Source: a virus. From it: a stretch of DNA of 21,698 bases. The notes below the pieces were generated by a model. The model was not told the origin of the DNA. It was given only the letters and a program-made list of their open reading frames with translations, and made no database searches. Positions 730 through 21,698 of the stretch are shown here, one piece after another. The translations under genes were made by a program, and so were the position numbers. Every line of letters begins with the position of its first letter. Position 1 is the stretch's first letter. The stretch spans positions 1-21,698 of IMG/VR virus record IMGVR_UViG_3300020005_000027; one strand, written 5' to 3'.

Positions 730-1067
730 TTAATACGAATGAATTAAGACGGGGTAACTGGGTTAACGCTACTTATGATGGCATAGATTACAGGCAAGTG
801 TTTAGCATTCCTAATATGGATGAATTTGCAGCAGAACCCATTACCATCACACCAGAAATATTAGAGAAGGCGGGATTTAAAAAAGAAGATAAGTTAAACG
901 TGAATGCACAAACATGGTGTAAGTTCGGAATGGGCGAATATCTTACATACTACTTTGATGGATTTTGCAAGTTTGAATTTGGGATAAAACCAGCGATTAA
1001 ATACGTCCACCAACTCCAAAATCTTTACTTCGCATTAACCGGTGAAGAACTATATATAAAACTATGA
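726..1067 (+). CDS. conserved phage hypothetical protein (HQLQNLYFALTGEEL family)
   Basis: The protein has 113 residues, starting on the ATGA overlap with the gene before. It begins NELRRGNWVN and has a central stretch EPITITPEILEKAGFKK. It ends with the hallmark HQLQNLYFALTGEELYI, which I recognise from many short hypothetical proteins in Bacteroidota phages and prophages. No biochemical role is known to me. It ends in another ATGA overlap with the glycosyltransferase-like gene, so it is co-translated with the glycan block. Confidence 0.8.
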   Translation: MINTNELRRGNWVNATYDGIDYRQVFSIPNMDEFAAEPITITPEILEKAGFKKEDKLNVNAQTWCKFGMGEYLTYYFDGFCKFEFGIKPAIKYVHQLQNLYFALTGEELYIKL

Positions 1068-1933
1068 CCCGTACAATTACAACTTGCCCAGGAATCGGAG
1101 ATACGATCTGGTTATTAATGAAACTAATAAACCAGAAAGAAAAATTCCATTGGAAAGTTGGCGATGGTTCACCCCAAAGATCAAAGCCGTTATTTGATTT
1201 GTTCCCACAATTAACAGAATCATTTGAATACATTCCTAACTCAGGTTACAAACAAATTAAACGTGATGCAAGTCGTGGTTTATGGAAACAGATGCCAGAT
1301 AAATTCTCATTGGAGGCCAATAGTCATCTGGAAGCAGGGTTTAGAATTGAAGATTTTTTACCTGATCTGGAAACTAGTTTTATATTGCCGTATCAAACAG
1401 ACAATTATTTTAGACAGGCTGATAATTTTATAAAAAAACCAACTTATATAAGTCAAGGTAAATACATTGGCATCTACACAACGTCTTATTCTAACTCCCG
1501 CTATATGTCAGGATGGCTTTTAGATGAATGGTCAAGGTTTATCCAATTACTAAGAGTTCACAATCCGGAGTATAAATTTGTTTTCATTGGAGCTGAGTAT
1601 GATCTTGGGTTATCGGATGAATTAATGAAATTGTTCCCTAAAGAGATTTACATTAATGCAATGAATCAGTCATTAGGAGTAACGATTGAGATTTTAAAGC
1701 GATTAGAAATGTTTGTAGGGTTTCAGTCTGGGCTATCAATCATCAATGAAACGATAGGGGCTAAACAAACTGTGATGCTTTATTCACCGAAGTTAGCAGC
1801 TATGATAGAAACATGGCCTGATAAAAAGCGAATAGAATCGGGGGCGTATAAAGGAGCGACCTTTGGCACGGCTAAGCATCCCCTAAAACCAGAACAGTTA
1901 TTTGATTGGCTTATAGAATTTAAAAAAATATAA
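1064..1933 (+). CDS. GT9/heptosyltransferase-like glycosyltransferase
   Basis: The 289-residue protein has the GT-B two-domain plan of ADP-heptose:LPS heptosyltransferases (GT9). An N-terminal glycine loop (CPGIGDTIWLLMKL, residues 8-21) corresponds to the acceptor-domain start GDxx. A C-terminal donor-domain motif (MFVGFQSGLSIINETIG, about 216-232) matches the family pattern in which a Gly/Ser pair and an acidic or polar residue contact the nucleotide. The middle has the typical strand of the second Rossmann fold (YKFVFIGAEYD). It is somewhat shorter than cellular heptosyltransferases (about 320-350). It probably transfers a sugar, but donor and acceptor are unknown. It lies in a coupled operon with methyltransferase and Stealth-like genes. 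An inactive scaffold role cannot be excluded. Confidence 0.7.
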   Translation: MTRTITTCPGIGDTIWLLMKLINQKEKFHWKVGDGSPQRSKPLFDLFPQLTESFEYIPNSGYKQIKRDASRGLWKQMPDKFSLEANSHLEAGFRIEDFLPDLETSFILPYQTDNYFRQADNFIKKPTYISQGKYIGIYTTSYSNSRYMSGWLLDEWSRFIQLLRVHNPEYKFVFIGAEYDLGLSDELMKLFPKEIYINAMNQSLGVTIEILKRLEMFVGFQSGLSIINETIGAKQTVMLYSPKLAAMIETWPDKKRIESGAYKGATFGTAKHPLKPEQLFDWLIEFKKI

Positions 1934-1934
1934 A

Positions 1935-2081
1935 ATGGAAGTTTGGAAGCCTTTAGTCGGTTTTAAAATTAATGGCGCTAATGTTCGTGGCTTAAATGCT
2001 GATCTTGCTAAAAAATACAACACAACAAAAGGCAACATAAAAACCATTGTTGCTGGTAAATCATGGAAACACATTTTATGA
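1935..2081 (+). CDS. helix-turn-helix fragment like the C-terminus of HNH homing endonucleases
   Basis: The protein has 48 residues (ATG 1935, TGA 2079-2081). The segment from residue 17 to the end (LNADLAKKYNTTKGNIK, then TIVAGKSWKHI) matches the helix-turn-helix that closes many phage HNH endonucleases, whose consensus is of the form LAxxFgVSxxxIxxIxxGksWkh. No HNH nuclease residues precede it. It is therefore either the DNA-binding remnant of a decayed homing endonuclease or a tiny stand-alone DNA-binding protein. It starts one base after the glycosyltransferase stop and ends in an ATGA overlap with the methyltransferase-like gene, so it remains inside the coupled operon. Confidence 0.65.
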   Translation: MEVWKPLVGFKINGANVRGLNADLAKKYNTTKGNIKTIVAGKSWKHIL

Positions 2082-2584
2082 GTATGCCAGTTAACGAGAA
2101 TTATTTCAAGACCTACAAAGGCGACTGCGAGGTATTCATAGAAACCGGCACTAATATGGGAGGGGGTGTTACATTAGCGGTGCAAGCAGGCTTCTTAGAA
2201 ATACATACAATAGACTTGGGTAATTTTCTTGATCCTCATTACAAGCATGGGCTAAATAATATTAATTACCACATTGGCGATAGTCCGAAGGTTTTGGATG
2301 AGTTATTACCGAAACTAAAAGATAAGAAAATAATGTTTTGGTTAGACGCTCATTCAATGCTAATGGAAGGCGAGGAAGAAAATTATCCTTTGTTAAGGGA
2401 ATTAAATGTTATTGAAAAACATTGCAAGAAATGTGTTATCTTAATTGATGATTATTTATACATGACGCATAATTTAATTACTGGATTTTCAACTAAGATG
2501 ATTGAAAAAAGATTAGACATGATGGGACTTGGAATTGAATATCTTTCAAACCCGATTATAAACAATATACTTTTAGCAAGATGA
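2078..2584 (+). CDS. class I SAM-dependent methyltransferase-like protein
   Basis: The protein has 168 residues. I place the start at ATG 2078 because it gives the ATGA overlap used throughout the operon. An in-frame ATG at 2063 would add five residues. Residues 20-47 (FIETGTNMGGGVTLAVQAGF and a following ID at the end of strand 2) form the glycine-rich motif I and acidic residue of a Rossmann methyltransferase. FWLDAHS (about 87-93) and ILIDDY are the later strands seen in FkbM-like and related small methyltransferases. The substrate is unknown. Position between two glycosyltransferase-like genes suggests a sugar or glycan target, by inference only. Confidence 0.65.
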   Translation: MSMPVNENYFKTYKGDCEVFIETGTNMGGGVTLAVQAGFLEIHTIDLGNFLDPHYKHGLNNINYHIGDSPKVLDELLPKLKDKKIMFWLDAHSMLMEGEEENYPLLRELNVIEKHCKKCVILIDDYLYMTHNLITGFSTKMIEKRLDMMGLGIEYLSNPIINNILLAR

Positions 2585-2724
2585 TCAGCGGTTACTACTT
2601 AGAACGACATGACTGGATTCGCAAAGGATCAATATACACAAAGGGGGAGAACGTTATTAAGTTTAACGGGACTGATTGGTTTTTGAATGGTAAGGTAATA
2701 ACAAGCACAAAAGAAGTACCATGA
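2581..2724 (+). CDS. hypothetical microprotein, 47 aa
   Basis: This frame is embedded by ATGA overlaps at both ends (2581 with the methyltransferase-like gene, 2721 with the next gene), which strongly supports real translation despite its size. The product starts MISGYYLERHDWIRKGS and continues with alternating hydrophobic and polar residues (NVIKFNGTDWFLNGKVI), suggesting a small beta-rich fold. There are no Cys pairs, membrane segment or known motif, and no family is recognised. Confidence 0.6.
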   Translation: MISGYYLERHDWIRKGSIYTKGENVIKFNGTDWFLNGKVITSTKEVP

Positions 2725-3527
2725 GCGATATTTTGTTCTGCCATAGTGGTAATAGCGGGGACATTGTATTTAGTATTCCTACCATAAATCATATATGCGG
2801 TAATGAAAGGAAGGCTATGCTATATATTAAAAAGGCGCAATATATCACCGGAAACCAATTTGATTTTGTAAAAGATTTATTGCTTCAGCAGCCTTCAATT
2901 AAATCAGTCCATCCTTTTATACCTACCGATAACGATTGGTCATATTTTAACTGGCCAGGATTGAAATATGATTATGATCTAGACTTAGCAAGGATGCAGA
3001 ACCAACGGGGACGAATACATATTGTGAAAAGGTATTTTGATACCTTTGGTATTCAAGCAGATCATACGAAACCTTTTTTAAAAATAGACGATTTGCCTTC
3101 TGGACTTAAAGGAACATTTGCTTTAATACACTTAACTCCCAGATGGAATGGATTGCAATACGATTGGAAAAAGATATATGCTGAAGCGAAAGAAAAATAT
3201 AAGCACGTTTTCTTTATAGGTTTTCAGTCTGAATGGTTAGATTTTTCATTACGCTTTGGCCCTATAATAGATTTGGTTACTAATGATCTTTTAGAAATGG
3301 CTCGGTTTATCAGGGACTGTGCAGCGTTATATTGTAATCAAGGGGTAGCATTGACTATTGCGCAAGGACTAGGAAAGGAATATTATCTTGTAAAAAACGG
3401 TACTAAGACTAACTGTCATTTGCATACACCAAATGAACATTTATTAGGCGCTGAATATTTAGCTTCTCATCATACGTTTTCAGATATGGACAGGCCTGAT
3501 TCACATTTACAAACAAGATTTAAATGA
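2721..3527 (+). CDS. second GT-B glycosyltransferase-like protein
   Basis: The protein has 268 residues. The N-terminal loop CHSGNSGDIVFSIPTI (residues 7-22) is the glycine-rich GD motif of GT9/heptosyltransferase-like enzymes. The C-terminal half has a second Rossmann strand (HVFFIGFQSEW) and a donor-site-like segment (AALYCNQGVALTIAQGLGK) where family members carry a Ser/Asn-Gly pair followed by a helix. It is related in architecture, not closely in sequence, to the protein at 1064-1933. It probably transfers a sugar or is a degenerate paralogue. It is coupled by ATGA to neighbours on both sides. Confidence 0.6.
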   Translation: MSDILFCHSGNSGDIVFSIPTINHICGNERKAMLYIKKAQYITGNQFDFVKDLLLQQPSIKSVHPFIPTDNDWSYFNWPGLKYDYDLDLARMQNQRGRIHIVKRYFDTFGIQADHTKPFLKIDDLPSGLKGTFALIHLTPRWNGLQYDWKKIYAEAKEKYKHVFFIGFQSEWLDFSLRFGPIIDLVTNDLLEMARFIRDCAALYCNQGVALTIAQGLGKEYYLVKNGTKTNCHLHTPNEHLLGAEYLASHHTFSDMDRPDSHLQTRFK

Positions 3528-4168
3528 ACTTCACAGCTAAAGGACGTAAATATGGAATTGATAAATTTGGAGTTATTACTCAACTTGATCATAGGCCTTT
3601 TGTTTATGATCCTAACTATTCTGCAATATATGATAGCGAACAGTATAAACGAGGATCTGATTTACTCCAAGCCCTGAGGGCTGGCTTTGCCTGTGCTTCA
3701 CATGGTAGGCAAATAAACTCTTTAATGGATGTCGGTTATGGAAACGCAGCTTTTATAAACTTTGTAAAGCAAGACTTGATCCCTTACGTTTACGGTCACG
3801 ACATAACCGGAGTTCCTTTAGACGGGGCTTATTTAATGCCTGAATTTGTTAAGGCAGATGTTTATACTTTCTGGGATGTTTTAGAACATTTCCCAGATTG
3901 TTCGTTTCTTAAAGACTTGCCTACAGAAACGATTTGCATAAGCCTTCCTTACTGTCATTTTCATACCGAGGGATTGGATTGGTTTGAAAATAAGTACCAC
4001 CATTTGAAGCCAGACGAGCATATACGTCATTATTCACCATTTAGTTTAATGGCATTTATGGATTCTTATGGGTGGAGAGCTATTGCCGAATCTGGACACG
4101 AAGACATAATACGCAAATCCAAACATGGGCTGCAAAATATTTTGAGTATGGCTTTTAAAAGAAAATAA
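3524..4168 (+). CDS. SAM-dependent methyltransferase (Methyltransf_23-like)
   Basis: The protein has 214 residues. The motif I region SLMDVGYGNAAFINF (about 67-80) holds the SAM-binding glycine loop. GHDITG follows as the end of strand 2. The FWDVLEHF segment (116-123) is the classical motif of ubiquinone/sugar-type methyltransferases with D, E and H after strand 4. The later HLKPDEHIRHYSPFSL matches the family's C-terminal EHxxHF block. The N-terminal 60 residues look like a short substrate cap. The target is unknown. It ends in TAA at 4166-4168, overlapping a likely ATA start of the next gene. Confidence 0.75.
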   Translation: MNFTAKGRKYGIDKFGVITQLDHRPFVYDPNYSAIYDSEQYKRGSDLLQALRAGFACASHGRQINSLMDVGYGNAAFINFVKQDLIPYVYGHDITGVPLDGAYLMPEFVKADVYTFWDVLEHFPDCSFLKDLPTETICISLPYCHFHTEGLDWFENKYHHLKPDEHIRHYSPFSLMAFMDSYGWRAIAESGHEDIIRKSKHGLQNILSMAFKRK

Positions 4169-4854
4169 ATACCATTACAATATTAATTCCATACAAACCC
4201 GATATTCACGAAGGAATTGAGTTGCTTTACGCTTTAAGGTCAATAGAGGCTAACTTAATGGGCTTCGGGAATGTTGTGGTAATAGGTCAGCCGCCATCAT
4301 GGTATATTGGCGAATCAGTAACAGCACAAGATTATGACGGGAGGAAACAATATACTATTTACCAGAAGATTTTAATAGGGTGTGAATTAAATAACGTTAC
4401 TGATGATTTTATTATGTTCAACGACGATCACTTTCTATTAAAACCATTATATGCTGAAAATATTAAATACTGGCATAACGGTCCGATAGCAAATGAAATG
4501 AATAGAAACCTGACGGCTAGATATGCCCATGCTGTTGAGAACACTATTAATATTTTACCGGATGCGATGAACTTTGATATTCATATACCAATAATTTATA
4601 ATAAGGCTAAGTTTAAAATGTTATTTGGTAACAAAAATGATGAGGTATGTGTTAAGACTTATTACTGCGAATCATTACAGCTACAAGGTGAGGAGATGGC
4701 TGACTGTAAGATTGATCAGTTATTGTCTTATGAAGCGATAAAAGAGTATATCAAAGACCGGATGTTTTTTTCTACTTCGATTAATTCAATCAAGGCTCCG
4801 ATGAGGGCGGTTTTGGAAGATATGTTTAAAGAAAAATCTAGGTGGGAAAAATAA
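4165..4854 (+). CDS. Stealth-like sugar-phosphotransferase/glycosyltransferase, non-ATG start
   Basis: The open frame runs from after a stop at 4156. Its first ATG is internal and a TTG at 4222 would remove the first strand. Residues encoded just upstream (ITILIPYKP) are a natural first beta strand of a Rossmann/GT-A fold. I therefore place the start at ATA 4165, which also gives the operon's 4-base overlap (ATAA); ATT 4174 is another option. With this start the protein has 229 residues. The segment DDFIMFNDDHFLLKPL (about 80-95) resembles the conserved NDDxF block of Stealth proteins, which transfer hexose-1-phosphate in capsule synthesis. A later HIPIIYNKAKF resembles their His-Pro block. 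It is shorter than usual, so catalytic identity is tentative. Confidence 0.6.
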   Translation: MNTITILIPYKPDIHEGIELLYALRSIEANLMGFGNVVVIGQPPSWYIGESVTAQDYDGRKQYTIYQKILIGCELNNVTDDFIMFNDDHFLLKPLYAENIKYWHNGPIANEMNRNLTARYAHAVENTINILPDAMNFDIHIPIIYNKAKFKMLFGNKNDEVCVKTYYCESLQLQGEEMADCKIDQLLSYEAIKEYIKDRMFFSTSINSIKAPMRAVLEDMFKEKSRWEK

Positions 4855-5013: not shown

Positions 5014-5565
5014 ATGATAACAAGGAAACAAATAGAAGATCATTACTTGGTTTTAGCACATGGCCACGTTTACAGTAAACGGACTAATAGGCGTATGGTT
5101 GGTAAGATTGACAAGTATGGGTATAGAATACTTTGTCTGTCTTTAGATTTGGGCGTTAAGCACGTTGGACTTCATAGGATCGTAGCTATTTGTTGGTTAG
5201 ACAACCCTAATAATTTGCCACAGATAAATCATAAAGATGGCGACAAATTAAATAATAGGGTTAATAATCTTGAATGGTGTACGGCTAAGCATAATACTCA
5301 ACATTCTTACGATACCGGATTATCAAAGGCGTGGAACAAAAATAAGACGGGTGTATATTCTGAAGAACAAATTTGCCGCATGCGGAAGAATCAGCCAAAT
5401 ATGAAGCCGGTAAGAGTTGAATTAAACGGGGTTGAAATTGCAAAATATGATAGCATGGCTGAACTATGCCGTGAAATGGGTTTTGATGAAAGAACAGCAA
5501 TGAGAGTTTTGCAAGGCAAGAAAAGCTATAATACTATTAAAGGACATAAACTTTATTACTCTTGA
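5014..5565 (+). CDS. HNH homing-type endonuclease with NUMOD1 domain
   Basis: The protein has 183 residues. The HNH_3-type nuclease core includes LHRIVAICWL (His54), then INHKDGDKLNN (Asn72-His73) and NLEWCT (Asn85), the expected bba-metal arrangement. This is followed by AKHNTQHSY, typical of phage NUMOD4/HNH proteins. Residues 131-183 (KPVRVELNGVEIAKYDSMAE, then an HTH-like LCREMGF and a final GHKLYYS) form a NUMOD1 DNA-binding repeat. Such proteins are free-standing or intron-borne homing endonucleases that nick or cut a cognate site. Here the gene is free-standing, directly upstream of and overlapping (TTGA) the terminase frame. HNH proteins that assist terminases (HK97 gp74 type) lack NUMOD domains, so homing is the better call. 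Confidence 0.9.
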   Translation: MITRKQIEDHYLVLAHGHVYSKRTNRRMVGKIDKYGYRILCLSLDLGVKHVGLHRIVAICWLDNPNNLPQINHKDGDKLNNRVNNLEWCTAKHNTQHSYDTGLSKAWNKNKTGVYSEEQICRMRKNQPNMKPVRVELNGVEIAKYDSMAELCREMGFDERTAMRVLQGKKSYNTIKGHKLYYS

Positions 5566-6936
5566 AATTAACTATAAAACAAACTCGGGCTTTGGATGTG
5601 CTCGAAGATGGCACCACTGGAGAATTGTACTACGGTGGTGCTGCGTAACAAGCCCCTTTCTGGTAACAGTTAGGGGCAATGTGCAGGAGGTGGGAAATCG
5701 GTTCTTGGTTGTTACTGGCAGATAAAAAGAAGATTAAAGTTTCCTGGTACAAGAGGGTTTATCGGGAGATCAGAGTTAAAAAACCTAAAAAAAACCACCC
5801 TCAATTCGTTCTTTGAAGTTTGTAAAATGCAGGGATTGAAAGTTGGAAGTCACATTACTTACAATGCACAGGATAGTATTATTAAATTCTTTAATGGATC
5901 GGAAATAATACTAGCTGATTTGTACGCTTATCCTAGTGATCCGGAGTTCGATAGTTTGGGTTCATTGGAAGTAACAGACGCTTTTGTAGATGAGGCGCCT
6001 CAGATAATAAGTAAGGCGAAGCAAATACTTAAATCTCGTATCAGGTTTAAGATTGATGACTTCGGGCTTATTCCAAAATTACTAATGACCGGAAATCCAT
6101 CAAAAGGCTGGGCTTACTATGATTTCTATTTACCAAATGAGCAAGGCACTTTAAGGACGGATAGAAAATTTATTCAAGCATTAGTAACAGACAATCCGAA
6201 TATCTCTGAGCATTATATTGAATCATTACGAGGACTTGATAAGAACAGCAGAGAAAGATTATTAAACGGTAACTGGCGATACGATGATGACCCGGCTGCA
6301 TTGATTGAGTATGATCACATCATTAACTGTTTTAGTAATACTCATGTTAACGGAGAATATAAATGTATAACAGCGGATATAGCACGTTACGGGAATGATA
6401 ATACGGTTATCGGAGTATGGAAAGGGCATCGGGTTAAATTGTACAGTTATCACGGTTTGAGTGTTACCGAATCAGCGAATAAGATAAACGAGCATAGGAA
6501 TCAGAATGCAATTGGAATGAGTGATGTGATTGTGGATGAAGATGGGATCGGCGGCGGGGTTGTGGATATTTTACGGTGTAAAGGGTTCGTGAATAATAGC
6601 ACACCATTGCCGGGGCCAGATATGCCGATCATGGATAGAATGGGAAATGTGAAGGCAGATAATTTTATAAACTTAAAATCTCAATGTTATTTTAAATTAG
6701 CCGATAGGATTAATAGCAATGGATTGTTTATAGAGTGTGAAGAAAATTTAAAGCAAACAATCATTGAAGAATTAGAACAAGTGAAGCAATATAATATGGA
6801 CAAGGATAATAAAAAACAAGTGATGCCCAAAGATAAGGTGAAGGAATTAATAGGCCGTTCACCTGACTTCAGCGACACTTTAATGATGAGAGAATGGTTT
6901 GAATTAACGCCTAAATGGGTTATACCCGTAGCATGA
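5562..6936 (+). CDS. terL: terminase large subunit, frame interrupted by a 40-nt gap within the P-loop
   Basis: This is the ATPase/nuclease that packages DNA through the portal. The frame starts at TTG 5562 (overlapping the HNH TGA) and encodes KLTIKQTRALDVL to YYGGAA (codon 28, GCG 5643-5645), directly followed by TAA. Coding resumes in another frame at GGA 5686 with GGGKS. Joined, the product has 444 residues, a normal length. It has Walker A GAAGGGKS (26-33), Walker B AFVDEA (Asp130-Glu131), and RNase H-like nuclease acids in TADIARYG (Asp259), VDEDGIGG (Asp312/314) and SPDFSDTLM (Asp422/425). Without joining, the first ATG in the downstream frame is at 5827, beyond Walker A, giving an enzyme with no P-loop. 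No ATG, GTG or TTG lies between the TAG at 5671 and 5827 in that frame. Confidence 0.9.
5646..5685 (+). other. candidate translational-bypass gap (40 nt) in terL
   Basis: The gap runs from the base after the proposed take-off codon GCG (5643-5645) to the end of the proposed landing codon GCA (5683-5685). The first gap codon is UAA. A second in-frame UAA lies at 5661, and the downstream frame has UAG at 5671, so neither readthrough nor a single frameshift rebuilds the protein. Both boundary codons are Ala and can be read by one tRNA-Ala with anticodon UGC. AGGGG (5672-5676) lies six bases upstream of the landing codon, like the Shine-Dalgarno-like GAG before the T4 gene 60 landing site. Alternatives are a spliced mini-intron, a dead gene or an assembly error. 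Confidence 0.6.
5652..5677 (+). other. GNRA-capped RNA hairpin inside the terL gap
   Basis: GCCCCT (5652-5657) pairs perfectly with AGGGGC (5672-5677). Inside, CTG (5660-5662) pairs with CAG (5667-5669) around a GTAA loop, a GNRA tetraloop. The two helices stack through a symmetric UU/UU internal loop. The hairpin occupies 26 of the 40 gap bases, starting six bases after the take-off stop and ending five bases before the landing codon. T4 gene 60 has a comparable stem-loop just after its take-off codon. Confidence 0.7.
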
Positions 6937-10581: not shown

Positions 10582-11844
10582 ATGGCAGATGAAATGAAAA
10601 TTAGCGGCGCACAACTACAAAAGATGTTCGACGCTATGAAAGACAATTTGGAATCATCTCTATCAGAGAAGATAGGAGGTGTCGTTATTGACGTGCAGAC
10701 TCTAACTCATCAGCAAGCTAACGGCGCTCCTAAAAAAGCATTAGATGAAATGGAGGGTAAGATCAATGCTAAGATTACAGAATTGGGAGCAAATTTTACT
10801 CAGTTCGTTGAAGATGCTAAAAAGAATCAGGTTCTAATTGATGAGTTGGCTATTGATCGTCAGAAGAGAAAAGATAATGCAGCTAATAAGCCTGATTTCA
10901 AAACCGCATGGAGTGGAGTTATAGAACAATTCAAGGAAAAGAAAAGCGAAATAGAAAAATTGGATCTTGGTCAAAAGATTAGTATCAAGTTGCCTCAAAA
11001 CGCAATGGACTTTGAAGAAAAAGCAATTATGACCATTGCAAATACAACAACAGGCATCGGTACAACCACCTTCAATGATCGTTTGGGTATTTTACCAGCG
11101 CAGAAAATCAATTTCCGTGACATACTTTCAACAGCACCTTCAGATGGTAATGGAAGTTATGTAACGTATCGTGAGACTTCAGCCGTTCAGGCTCCTGCTG
11201 TTCAAACTGAAGGTTCTGCTAAAGCTAACTTGCAATATACTTTCTCGGCTATTACAGCTACGTTGAAATACATTGCCGGTTTTGCAACATTCACAAAGCA
11301 ACTTACTTTCAATTTGAATTTCATGCAGAACAAACTGCCACAAATGTTGCTTCGTGATTTCTACAAAGCAGAGAACGCTTATTTATTTAATACACTTGCT
11401 GGTAACTCAACAGGCACAAGTTTGCCCGCTGGTACTTTAGCTAAAGCAGATGTTGAGGAAATTTTACAGGTAATAGCCAGCCAGAGAGGTAGAAACTTTG
11501 ATGCTTCTTATGGAATAATTGACTGGAGCGAATGGCAAAGAATACTTGCAACCAAACCATCTGACTATTCAATTCCAGGTGGTGTATTGATTGACGGTAA
11601 CGGTATCATCCGTATTGCTGGTATGCCAATCATTCCTGCGGCTTGGGCGCAAACAGATCACATCTTGGTTTATGATAATTACTACTACGAGAGAGTAGAA
11701 GGAGAGGCTCTTTCAGTAACTATCAGTTATGAGAACCAAGACAACTTTGAGAAGAATCAGGTAACGATGAAGGTGGAGTGCTTTGAAGAGCTCAATAGAT
11801 TGCGTGACGATGCTTCTATTTACTATGATTTCGGTAATAGCTAA
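10582..11844 (+). CDS. major capsid protein, HK97 fold
   Basis: The protein has 420 residues. Residues 1 to about 130 are charged and helical, fitting the delta (scaffolding) domain removed by the adjacent protease. The mature part begins near the segment IMTIANTTTGIGTTTF (about 150). It includes the E-loop/N-arm region with FRDILSTAPSDGNGSYVTYR, the FATFTKQLTFNLNFMQNKLP spine region, and the P/A-domain block IDGNGIIRIAGMPIIPAAW near the C-terminus (about 335-355), all characteristic of Phage_capsid family proteins. It starts 11 bases after the protease stop with an A-rich leader and no Shine-Dalgarno. A terminator follows at 11929-11960. Confidence 0.93.
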   Translation: MADEMKISGAQLQKMFDAMKDNLESSLSEKIGGVVIDVQTLTHQQANGAPKKALDEMEGKINAKITELGANFTQFVEDAKKNQVLIDELAIDRQKRKDNAANKPDFKTAWSGVIEQFKEKKSEIEKLDLGQKISIKLPQNAMDFEEKAIMTIANTTTGIGTTTFNDRLGILPAQKINFRDILSTAPSDGNGSYVTYRETSAVQAPAVQTEGSAKANLQYTFSAITATLKYIAGFATFTKQLTFNLNFMQNKLPQMLLRDFYKAENAYLFNTLAGNSTGTSLPAGTLAKADVEEILQVIASQRGRNFDASYGIIDWSEWQRILATKPSDYSIPGGVLIDGNGIIRIAGMPIIPAAWAQTDHILVYDNYYYERVEGEALSVTISYENQDNFEKNQVTMKVECFEELNRLRDDASIYYDFGNS

Positions 11845-11975: not shown

Positions 11976-12206
11976 ATGGCTAAAAAAAGATCAGAAGAAA
12001 CGAGAAAGATAATTTCAGAAACAAGAACAAAGTTTCCTTATGGAAAACCTGTTGTTCAGATGACAACTACTTACGAGGTAATTAAAGAATGGGATTCTGT
12101 TATTAAGGCTAGTAAAGAGTTAGGTATTAATTACGGTAACTTATCAACAGCAGCAAGAGGCGAAGCTAATCATGCTGGTGGTTACAGGTGGGAATATAAA
12201 GATTGA
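11976..12206 (+). CDS. NUMOD3-NUMOD1 protein, likely homing endonuclease remnant
   Basis: The protein has 76 residues. SEETRKIISETRTKF (6-20) is a NUMOD3 repeat, the short motif repeated in GIY-YIG and HNH homing endonucleases. Residues 24-76 (KPVVQMTTTYEVIKEWDSVI, then KASKELGINYGNLSTAARG and GGYRWEY) form a full NUMOD1 DNA-binding domain. No nuclease domain precedes it; the terminator is directly upstream. It is therefore a decayed homing endonuclease keeping only DNA-binding parts, or a co-opted DNA-binding protein. It overlaps the next microprotein by one base (TGATG). Confidence 0.75.
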   Translation: MAKKRSEETRKIISETRTKFPYGKPVVQMTTTYEVIKEWDSVIKASKELGINYGNLSTAARGEANHAGGYRWEYKD

Positions 12207-20287: not shown

Positions 20288-20532
20288 AATATAAAACGGT
20301 AATCGGAAGTGATGGAGGAACTACAGTTAATGTAGGGCTACCGAAGTCTCAAATAATTGCCGTATCAAGACAGGGGGAAGAAAAGGATTGGATGGGACCA
20401 TTTTTACTTAGTGCGTTTAACGGTAGTAATTGGGCGGTGGTACTTGGTAGGCCGCACAGAATAACTTTTGGTGCTAATTATCCGTTCGTTGGTGATGAAG
20501 TGATTCATATAATTTATAAAGTAACAGTATGA
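20275..20532 (+). CDS. small tail-tip beta protein, 85 aa
   Basis: ATG 20275 overlaps the previous stop by 13 bases. VNVGLPKSQIIAVSRQGEE and DEVIHIIYKV match the C-terminal domain of the preceding protein (GLSAANIIAVYREG; MFVIWTY). The two appear to be diverged copies of one beta-sandwich module, one fused, one free. It ends on ATGA with the spike gene. It may be a small decoration or receptor-contact protein of the tail tip. Confidence 0.6.
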   Translation: MDLLKYKTVIGSDGGTTVNVGLPKSQIIAVSRQGEEKDWMGPFLLSAFNGSNWAVVLGRPHRITFGANYPFVGDEVIHIIYKVTV

Positions 20533-21698
20533 AAAATATTATATTATTTATTTGCTTGGTTGTTTCGTTTCAGATGTTCGGTCAAGTCCCGACAGGGTTT
20601 CAGTATAGAAGAGTGAACGAAAGGATACAAGGTAAGTTTATGGTTGATTCAATGGGGTACATGGCAAGGTATTATGATACAACTGCCGCCAATCTTCATA
20701 TGTTAATAGATACTTGTGGGGCGCACTTTTTTTCATATGCAACTAATACAGTATGGGTAAGGGCTTGCAATCCTAAGCATTGGGTTGAGGTTGGTAGCGG
20801 AGGCGGCATTGGTACACTTGATACATTACTTCCAAGAGACGCAATGTTTGATGTTGTTCAGAACACAGGGGGTACGGCCTATAAATCACACAGGCAAATA
20901 GTTTACAATATAAAAGACTACGGGGCTACAGGAGACGGGGTAACAGATGATCAGCCGTTCATTCAACGGGCAATCGATTCTTGTTTTTCTCAAGGTGGTG
21001 GTGTGGTTTATCTACCTAACGGGATTTATTTGTTGACAGCAACGGCACAAAGTGGGATGCACTTGCGTATTCCTGTATCTACAATTCACCGGACAGATAC
21101 GGCAGTTACAGTAGAGTTCAGAGGAGAAACTCCTCCAATGATGTGGACGAATCCTTTAACTGATACCAATAATGCAAAACCACCTTTAACCGGAGTGATA
21201 TTAAAAAGTTCTTTACTTTCTTCTACTGCTATACTATCAACAAATTTTGATGGTGCAGGTCAAGCTAATTTCTGTAACGTAGTAGTAAGAAATATCGGAT
21301 TTAGAATACGAAGCATGACGGGGCTAACTCACGTCGCTCCAGAGGGTCAGGGAATAGACGGTAGTAAATTATCCATGTTAACGGTAGATAATGTAAGAAT
21401 CGATACAGAAAGCCCAAGAGATAGTACAGTAATGCCAAATTCAAGTAGTGTAGGGATTAACTTTCCAAGAGTAAATAATTGGTGTCAGATAAATTTTACC
21501 AACTCACTTATAACAGGAATGTACAAGGCAATAGTTGTAGCGGAACATTTCAAAGCAAACAACGTAGAACTTGATGGAAATTATATTGGGTTAACTACTT
21601 ACGGAGAAACTCAGTATCACCCTATCGAAATATCTCAAATGGGTTTCTGGAGGAACGCTTATAATATAGTTTTACAAGGAAGCGGAAGAATAAGTATC
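20529..21698 (+). CDS. pectate-lyase-like tail spike with signal peptide, 3' end missing
   Basis: This is a partial gene: ATG 20529 then 390 codons without stop to the window edge. Residues 1-19 (MKNIILFICLVVSFQMFGQ) are a Sec signal peptide of Bacteroidota type, with cleavage likely after Q19. A linker with GSGGG (90-93 region) follows. Then YNIKDYGATGDGVTDDQP (126-143) and GGGVVYLPNGIYLL (157-170) open a right-handed beta-helix of the Pectate_lyase_3/GH28 group. Later strands repeat N, V and I at about 25-residue spacing. Such spikes bind or cut surface polysaccharide. The signal peptide is unusual for a virion protein. Confidence 0.8.
   Translation, partial: MKNIILFICLVVSFQMFGQVPTGFQYRRVNERIQGKFMVDSMGYMARYYDTTAANLHMLIDTCGAHFFSYATNTVWVRACNPKHWVEVGSGGGIGTLDTLLPRDAMFDVVQNTGGTAYKSHRQIVYNIKDYGATGDGVTDDQPFIQRAIDSCFSQGGGVVYLPNGIYLLTATAQSGMHLRIPVSTIHRTDTAVTVEFRGETPPMMWTNPLTDTNNAKPPLTGVILKSSLLSSTAILSTNFDGAGQANFCNVVVRNIGFRIRSMTGLTHVAPEGQGIDGSKLSMLTVDNVRIDTESPRDSTVMPNSSSVGINFPRVNNWCQINFTNSLITGMYKAIVVAEHFKANNVELDGNYIGLTTYGETQYHPIEISQMGFWRNAYNIVLQGSGRISI

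Follow-up and report, generated by a model that had tools for sequence, protein, structure and literature searches.

Architecture of the terL locus

The window, i.e. the whole stretch of DNA analyzed here, is a 21.7-kb virus contig whose head-tail genes follow the order portal, Mu-F-like protein, S78 prohead protease and major head protein. Its terminase gene terL is split within the Walker A P-loop. The features of interest are listed below; both boundary codons and the TAG were read directly from the sequence.

5014..5565, plus strand: HNH endonuclease gene, 183 aa (PF13392 HNH_3, E 6e-7; phrog_59, E 4e-36)
5562-6936, plus strand: terL, split within the Walker A P-loop by exactly 40 nt (5646-5685)
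5562..5645, plus strand: first terL segment, 28 codons from TTG to the take-off codon, aligning to the ATG-started N-termini of intact relatives
5643..5645, plus strand: take-off codon GCG (Ala)
5646..5685, plus strand: candidate bypassed insert, 40 nt, opening with the stop TAA and closing with the landing codon
5652..5677, plus strand: hairpin with a 6-bp GC-rich stem, a UU/UU internal loop, a 3-bp stem and a GUAA loop
5671..5673, plus strand: TAG closing the downstream frame within the insert
5672..5676, plus strand: Shine-Dalgarno-like AGGGG, 6 nt 5' of the landing GCA and within the 3' stem arm
5683..5685, plus strand: landing codon GCA (Ala)
5686..6936, plus strand: second terL segment, 416 aa from GGGKS to the stop, matching Terminase_3/Terminase_6N and phrog_979

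Translation of the frame from TTG 5562 gave LKLTIKQTRALDVLEDGTTGELYYGGAA, ending with GCG 5643-5645 and followed by TAA at 5646-5648, and the P-loop continues as GGGKS from 5686 in the +1 frame. These coordinates, proposed in the first-pass annotation, all check out, and deletion of 5646-5685 indeed yields YYGGAAGGGKS, both on the window sequence and as found in intact relatives. The terL start is TTG in the window and ATG at the same place in relatives; it is overlapped by the TGA stop of the HNH gene, which, judged by its sequence, is a probable free-standing homing endonuclease. Neither the HNH gene nor the ATG of the relatives figures in the first-pass annotation. Under bypass of the insert, ALDVLEDGTTGELYYGGAAGGGK is the predicted tryptic peptide of TerL.

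Elsewhere in the window, glycosyltransferase/methyltransferase-like ORFs (phrog_7999, Stealth CR2-like, phrog_6564 methyltransferase) cluster at 1064-4854, ahead of the packaging genes, and a pectate-lyase-like ORF (PF12708) at 20529-21698, whose product is likely a tail spike, runs off the contig. After the major head protein gene, a 76-aa ORF (11976-12206) matches the NUMOD-like DNA-binding domain of I-HmuI and lacks an HNH domain; it is probably what remains of a second homing endonuclease.

Folding of the insert

Folding of the gap with its immediate flanks gave z = -3.2 and the GNRA-capped hairpin that had been claimed for 5652-5677, pairing 5652-5657 with 5672-5677 and 5660-5662 with 5667-5669 around a GTAA loop (in DNA letters). 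Folded alone, the insert reached -18.1 kcal/mol, a value equalled by 1 of 3,094 40-nt windows sampled from the plus strand of the contig. The AGGGG likewise lies where it had been placed before the landing codon, but the likeness to phage T4 is weaker on this point: it is the 3' stem arm, the GGCGG/CCGCC hairpin of locus L226 (see below) has no such element, and AGGGG at 5672-5676 is probably incidental as a Shine-Dalgarno-like sequence. At and after the landing codon, window positions 5685-5692 read AGGAGGTG, a perfect Shine-Dalgarno match; some inserts (L090, L102, L137), though not all, have it as GCAGGAGGTGG. The first 28 residues of TerL contain no visible nascent-peptide signal of the KKYK type known from gene 60, although an unrelated signal may be present.

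Relatives without the insert

The 40 nt are missing from 90 intact relatives, and homologous inserts occur in 17 other contigs. The nearest TerLs, L003, L004 and L005 (83-84% amino acid identity; 84% for the second segment against L005) as well as L007 (76%), have an uninterrupted YYGGAAGGGKS. When L003-L005 were aligned to the window at the DNA level, as the first-pass annotation had suggested, two blocks were absent, namely the HNH gene and precisely the 40 nt, and the P-loop was contiguous. At the position matching the landing codon the intact relatives use the four GCN codons about equally. Among cultured relatives, terL is annotated as a single gene in Flavobacterium phage 11b, Cellulophaga phi10:1, Polaribacter P12002L, Bacteroides Versailles and BS-TP1, and the intact P-loop was seen in four of these five. 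Searches of phage records by tblastn gave one-piece matches only, among the matches listed, and thus no cultured carrier of the insert. As a separate observation, L009 and L042, both on the 26-kb contig IMGVR_UViG_3300021189_000042, are apparently two different terL genes of the same family about 10 kb apart.

Nearly all instances of the insert come from metagenomic contigs, which could point to an assembly or sequencing artefact. We regard this explanation as practically negligible, because another IMG/VR contig, L038, shares the 40 nt and the HNH gene with the window, from which it differs by one indel over 14.3 kb, and because unrelated contigs from other datasets carry 16 further distinct, covarying inserts. 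This sole difference, a one-base indel at window position 10823, lies in the major head protein gene, whose frame is intact in the window.

Recurrence at one codon boundary

A pattern scan for stop-interrupted P-loops unveiled L044, whose TerL is 50% identical to that of the window and which carries a 40-nt insert at the same site with GCT as both take-off and landing codon. Relatives of L044 and broader pattern scans extended the set to 18 viral contigs with 17 distinct sequences. All of these inserts, referred to as Ala-type, interrupt terL at one codon boundary, and their lengths of 40-45 nt cover all three frames:

40 nt: window, L044, L085, L086, L087, L090, L102, L115, L130, L134
41 nt: L144
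42 nt: L143, L110, L142, L145
43 nt: L131, L137
45 nt: L140

Candidates L045-L050 from a P-loop scan of a genome collection were rejected as chance GC-rich matches. Covariance searches of the tested loci found no second Ala-type element elsewhere, and the weak matches in L226 (845-872) and L213 were not counted as members. The 41-nt P-loop insert of L144/L235 lies in a Mu-like prophage that adjoins an Rhs/YD-repeat locus, with the genes for portal and head morphogenesis open and the terL start region perhaps replaced.

The synonymous boundary codons noticed in the window (GCG/GCA) proved to be general, as Ala codons stand at both take-off and landing in 18/18 contigs, although the third base may differ. 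The take-off codon is GCT in 13, GCC in four and GCG in one (the window), the landing codon GCA in 12 and GCT in six. Within the landing triplet, which would be untranslated under bypass, GC is invariant while the preceding spacer varies. Hops from GCC to GCA (L137, L142, L144) would need a tRNA-Ala(UGC) that reads GCC. GCN at both insert ends could also be a short direct repeat left by insertion. The T4-like stop directly after take-off holds for the window but not universally: a stop follows at +1 or +2 codons in 13/18 contigs, directly after take-off in the window, L044 and L143 and one codon further in most others, and L137, L140, L142, L144 and L145 have none within two codons.

Covariation of the stem

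In an alignment (A2) of 17 inserts, 91.7% of the cells were paired and 8 of 10 pairs had changed on both sides. The covariation score was 0.469; shuffling gave 0.209, with none of 500 shuffles reaching the observed value, and sliding the structure gave no more than 0.181. The first stem base lies mostly 5 nt after the take-off codon. Even within one clade the insert length and therefore the frame vary (L137, 43 nt; L140, 45 nt; L142, 42 nt), which no frame-dependent decoding could tolerate.

Tolerance of all frames, a conserved hairpin and a pairing that joins the insert ends would equally be accounted for if the insert were a mini-intron of 40-45 nt, excised from the RNA by an unknown nuclease/ligase or a ribozyme. 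Such a removal gives no reason why the last three bases of the insert, which stay untranslated, should specify the same amino acid as the take-off codon, and no Rfam family, group I/II introns included, matched at E <= 1 in 501 nt of the window and 1.1 kb of L090. To our knowledge, all self-splicing introns are far larger. RNA-level removal is thus unlikely, and we infer that it is the ribosome that skips the insert, not an RNA-processing step that removes it.

Selection and reading frame

Purifying selection was evident on both sides of the insert. Between L137 (43 nt) and L140 (45 nt) dN/dS was 0.056 before and 0.054 after the insert, and between L131 (43 nt) and L143 (42 nt) it was 0.072 and 0.030, respectively. 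Several pairs were saturated and gave no value; where computable, dN/dS of the C-terminal part was 0.02-0.11 between insert-bearing pairs with many synonymous differences. The N-terminal part, noisy with its 28 codons, gave mostly 0.04-0.2, and two pairs with 0.4-0.65 are explained by low synonymous divergence. Low dN/dS on both sides of inserts that differ in frame argues that the two terL halves are constrained as one protein.

These values bear directly on the possibility that terL is dead and that the inserts are disabling mutations in pseudogenes or defective prophages. The frame is broken under any standard decoding, and L144, beside its Rhs locus, may be a remnant. Nevertheless, the C-terminal part is one intact frame and evolves under the constraint described above, the precise site and structure are identical in many lineages, and each insert-bearing contig searched, these contigs being fragments, contains only one TerL of the family and no second terminase. 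A dead terL is therefore quite improbable.

In every one of the 18 contigs the insert contains a stop that closes the downstream frame, and in 14/18 no start codon lies between this stop and the P-loop. As had been claimed for the window, ATG, GTG and TTG are all absent between the TAG at 5671-5673 and the P-loop, leaving no start upstream of Walker A for re-initiation, which would yield a shortened TerL. Frameshifting and/or stop readthrough, by which a TerL with extra P-loop residues would be made, could draw on the stops near take-off and the strong hairpin 5 nt downstream, both typical recoding stimulators. However, with inserts in all three frames and the downstream frame always closed, two events would be needed in the frame-shifted members, and the extra residues would break the GxxxxGKS spacing. 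We consider recoding of this kind, including re-initiation, very improbable indeed. An alternative genetic code was rejected as well: many ORFs of the window terminate at TAA or TGA, as do ORFs of L230 at TAG and ORFs of L156 and L188 at TGA.

Association with HNH genes

In the window, L085, L086, L087, L090, L102, L131 and L142, the terL start coincides with the end of an HNH gene. An adjacent upstream HNH gene was found in 8/16 insert-bearing loci whose upstream sequence is 700 bp or longer, versus 0/74 intact loci (Fisher p = 1.7e-7), or in 6/14 insert-bearing loci with L085-L087 collapsed (p = 5.5e-6); both p-values are optimistic because the loci are related. About half of the insert-bearing loci have no adjacent HNH gene. 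On a quick maximum-likelihood tree of 105 TerLs, presence of the insert requires 14 changes, against a mean of 15.9 after shuffling, and is hardly more clustered than chance; well-supported branches force 7 of the 14. L044, for example, carries the insert and its tree neighbor L052 does not. L085 and L086 are identical in the N-terminal part and upstream and diverged in the C-terminal part, a pattern that may reflect co-conversion of flanking DNA, although mosaic N-termini were seen in intact pairs, too, and identity profiles upstream of -90 are unreliable owing to free end gaps.

Further P-loop inserts next to HNH genes

A wider search used an alignment of these HNH proteins as query and is biased towards interrupted P-loops. 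Where no more than about 150 nt separate the HNH stop from the start of the P-loop, the latter was interrupted in 12/13 loci (one of them, L155, being the same contig as L131), with L159 alone intact. Three FGGAI-type TerLs carry hairpin inserts, of 39 nt in L194 and L222 and of 42 nt in L226. An Ile codon (ATA/ATT) and an Arg codon (CGA/CGC or CGA/CGA) are each repeated in L194 and L222; in L226 no matched codon pair was seen. Eight further loci carry short inserts of 4-8 nt with the stop first:

L156: GGT-TGA-GGC
L230: GGT-TAG-GGC
L157: GGC-TGAAT-GGT
L188: GGC-TGAAA-GGT
L196: GGT-TAAC-GGT
L221: ACG-TA-ACT, the stop TAA overlapping the landing codon
L195: GCT-TAGTT, without matched codons
L212: GGT-TAGC, without matched codons

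Synonymous codons thus flank the stop in 6/8 short inserts (Gly-TGA-Gly, Gly-TAG-Gly, Gly-TAA-Gly, Thr-TAA-Thr), which, if skipped, would be natural stop-hops. L196 and L212 are helicase-like genes (DMG/LGKT), the other short inserts lie in terminases, and removal of each insert of this wider class restores the expected P-loop. The wider class is a lead and less certain than the Ala-type inserts; free-standing HNH homing endonucleases may well make general use of ribosome-skipped immunity inserts. In L179, L185 and L223, the sequence downstream of the HNH match has intein-like C-termini (VHN or AHN, then SGKS/SGKT) exactly at P-loops, which makes this motif appear to be a hot spot of intein homing as well.

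Discussion

The first-pass annotation proposed that the ribosome hops 40 nt to make an intact TerL. Comparison strongly supports this proposal, and we infer the hop itself from 17 distinct inserts at one boundary in all frames, their covariation and matched Ala codons, together with purifying selection on both halves and a downstream frame that is closed in every case. We consider it likely that the HNH gene and the ribosome-bypassed insert form a homing cassette that immunizes its own target and works like mobA and gene 60 of T4. In such a cassette, the HNH nuclease would cut or nick the conserved P-loop site of terL in insert-free phages, and repair off the cassette-bearing genome would copy both the nuclease gene and the insert, which by destroying the target would render its carrier immune. 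On the mRNA, the ribosome would pause at the Ala take-off codon, held by the GC-rich hairpin, whose base lies about 5 nt downstream, and, in most members, by the stop. The peptidyl-tRNA(Ala) would then release, the ribosome would pass the insert, re-pair at the Ala codon at its 3' end and resume at GGGKS, so that one intact packaging ATPase is made and terL survives.

Bonocora et al. (2011; cited in PMC10236363 and PMC5009743) reportedly described the mobA HNH endonuclease and the gene 60 insert of T4 as a mobile cassette. In T4, a homing endonuclease split gene 39, and the 50-nt bypassed insert of gene 60 may protect against it (PMC5009743). Take-off and landing in gene 60 use matched GGA codons; a stop follows the former, GAG precedes the latter by 6 nt, and stem-loops and a nascent-peptide signal are present as well (PMC3014915, PMC11194080). 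Sliding in gene 60 is processive up to 56 nt, which places a gap of 40-45 nt within hopping range (PMC11194080). As in T4, an upstream HNH gene accompanies an early non-coding gap with a hairpin in a phage gene (PMC5009743, PMC3014915, PMC2988022), take-off and landing codons are synonymous, a stop follows take-off (in the window) and the gap is absent from related phages. The parallel is stronger than at first reading, because the HNH gene adjoins terL. Here, however, the Walker A motif of terL is interrupted, Ala rather than Gly is matched, the gap has 40-45 instead of 50 nt, a nascent-peptide signal is not obvious, the stop and the Shine-Dalgarno-like element are not conserved, and many lineages rather than one are concerned, often without HNH gene. 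Judged by comparison of sequences, the terL insert family appears to share most of the hallmarks of gene 60-type bypassing.

The byps of Magnusiomyces mitochondria are likewise short frame-disrupting blocks that are skipped and tolerate an inexact match of the flanking codons (PMC5009743). They differ in occupying 81 sites in one mitochondrial genome, apparently independent of context, whereas the terL inserts occupy one site per phage contig, are HNH-linked and have a covarying hairpin. Bypass has also been proposed in the terminase gene of Streptomyces phage Hau3, with a much shorter gap tied to a UUA codon and no HNH link described there (PMC5009743). P-loop inteins and group I introns with homing nucleases follow the same target logic, and the HNH domains in L179, L185 and L223 are related; at the terL of the window, unlike these elements, no intein or ribozyme is found, just a 40-nt hairpin.

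Bypassing has been said to appear unique to T4 gene 60 (PMC3014915), and few cases were known before the mitochondrial byps (PMC5009743). We found no prior description of the terL insert family in the open-access literature. Comparative evidence now points to a family of candidate bypass elements that occupy the same codon boundary of an essential gene in many phages, where annotators are probably calling split or truncated terminases although one protein is made. The terL inserts would offer natural variation for studies of the mechanism and would link bypassing to homing as a recurrent route. Bypassing, for which phages had provided essentially a single example, now looks like a mobile strategy that is widespread.
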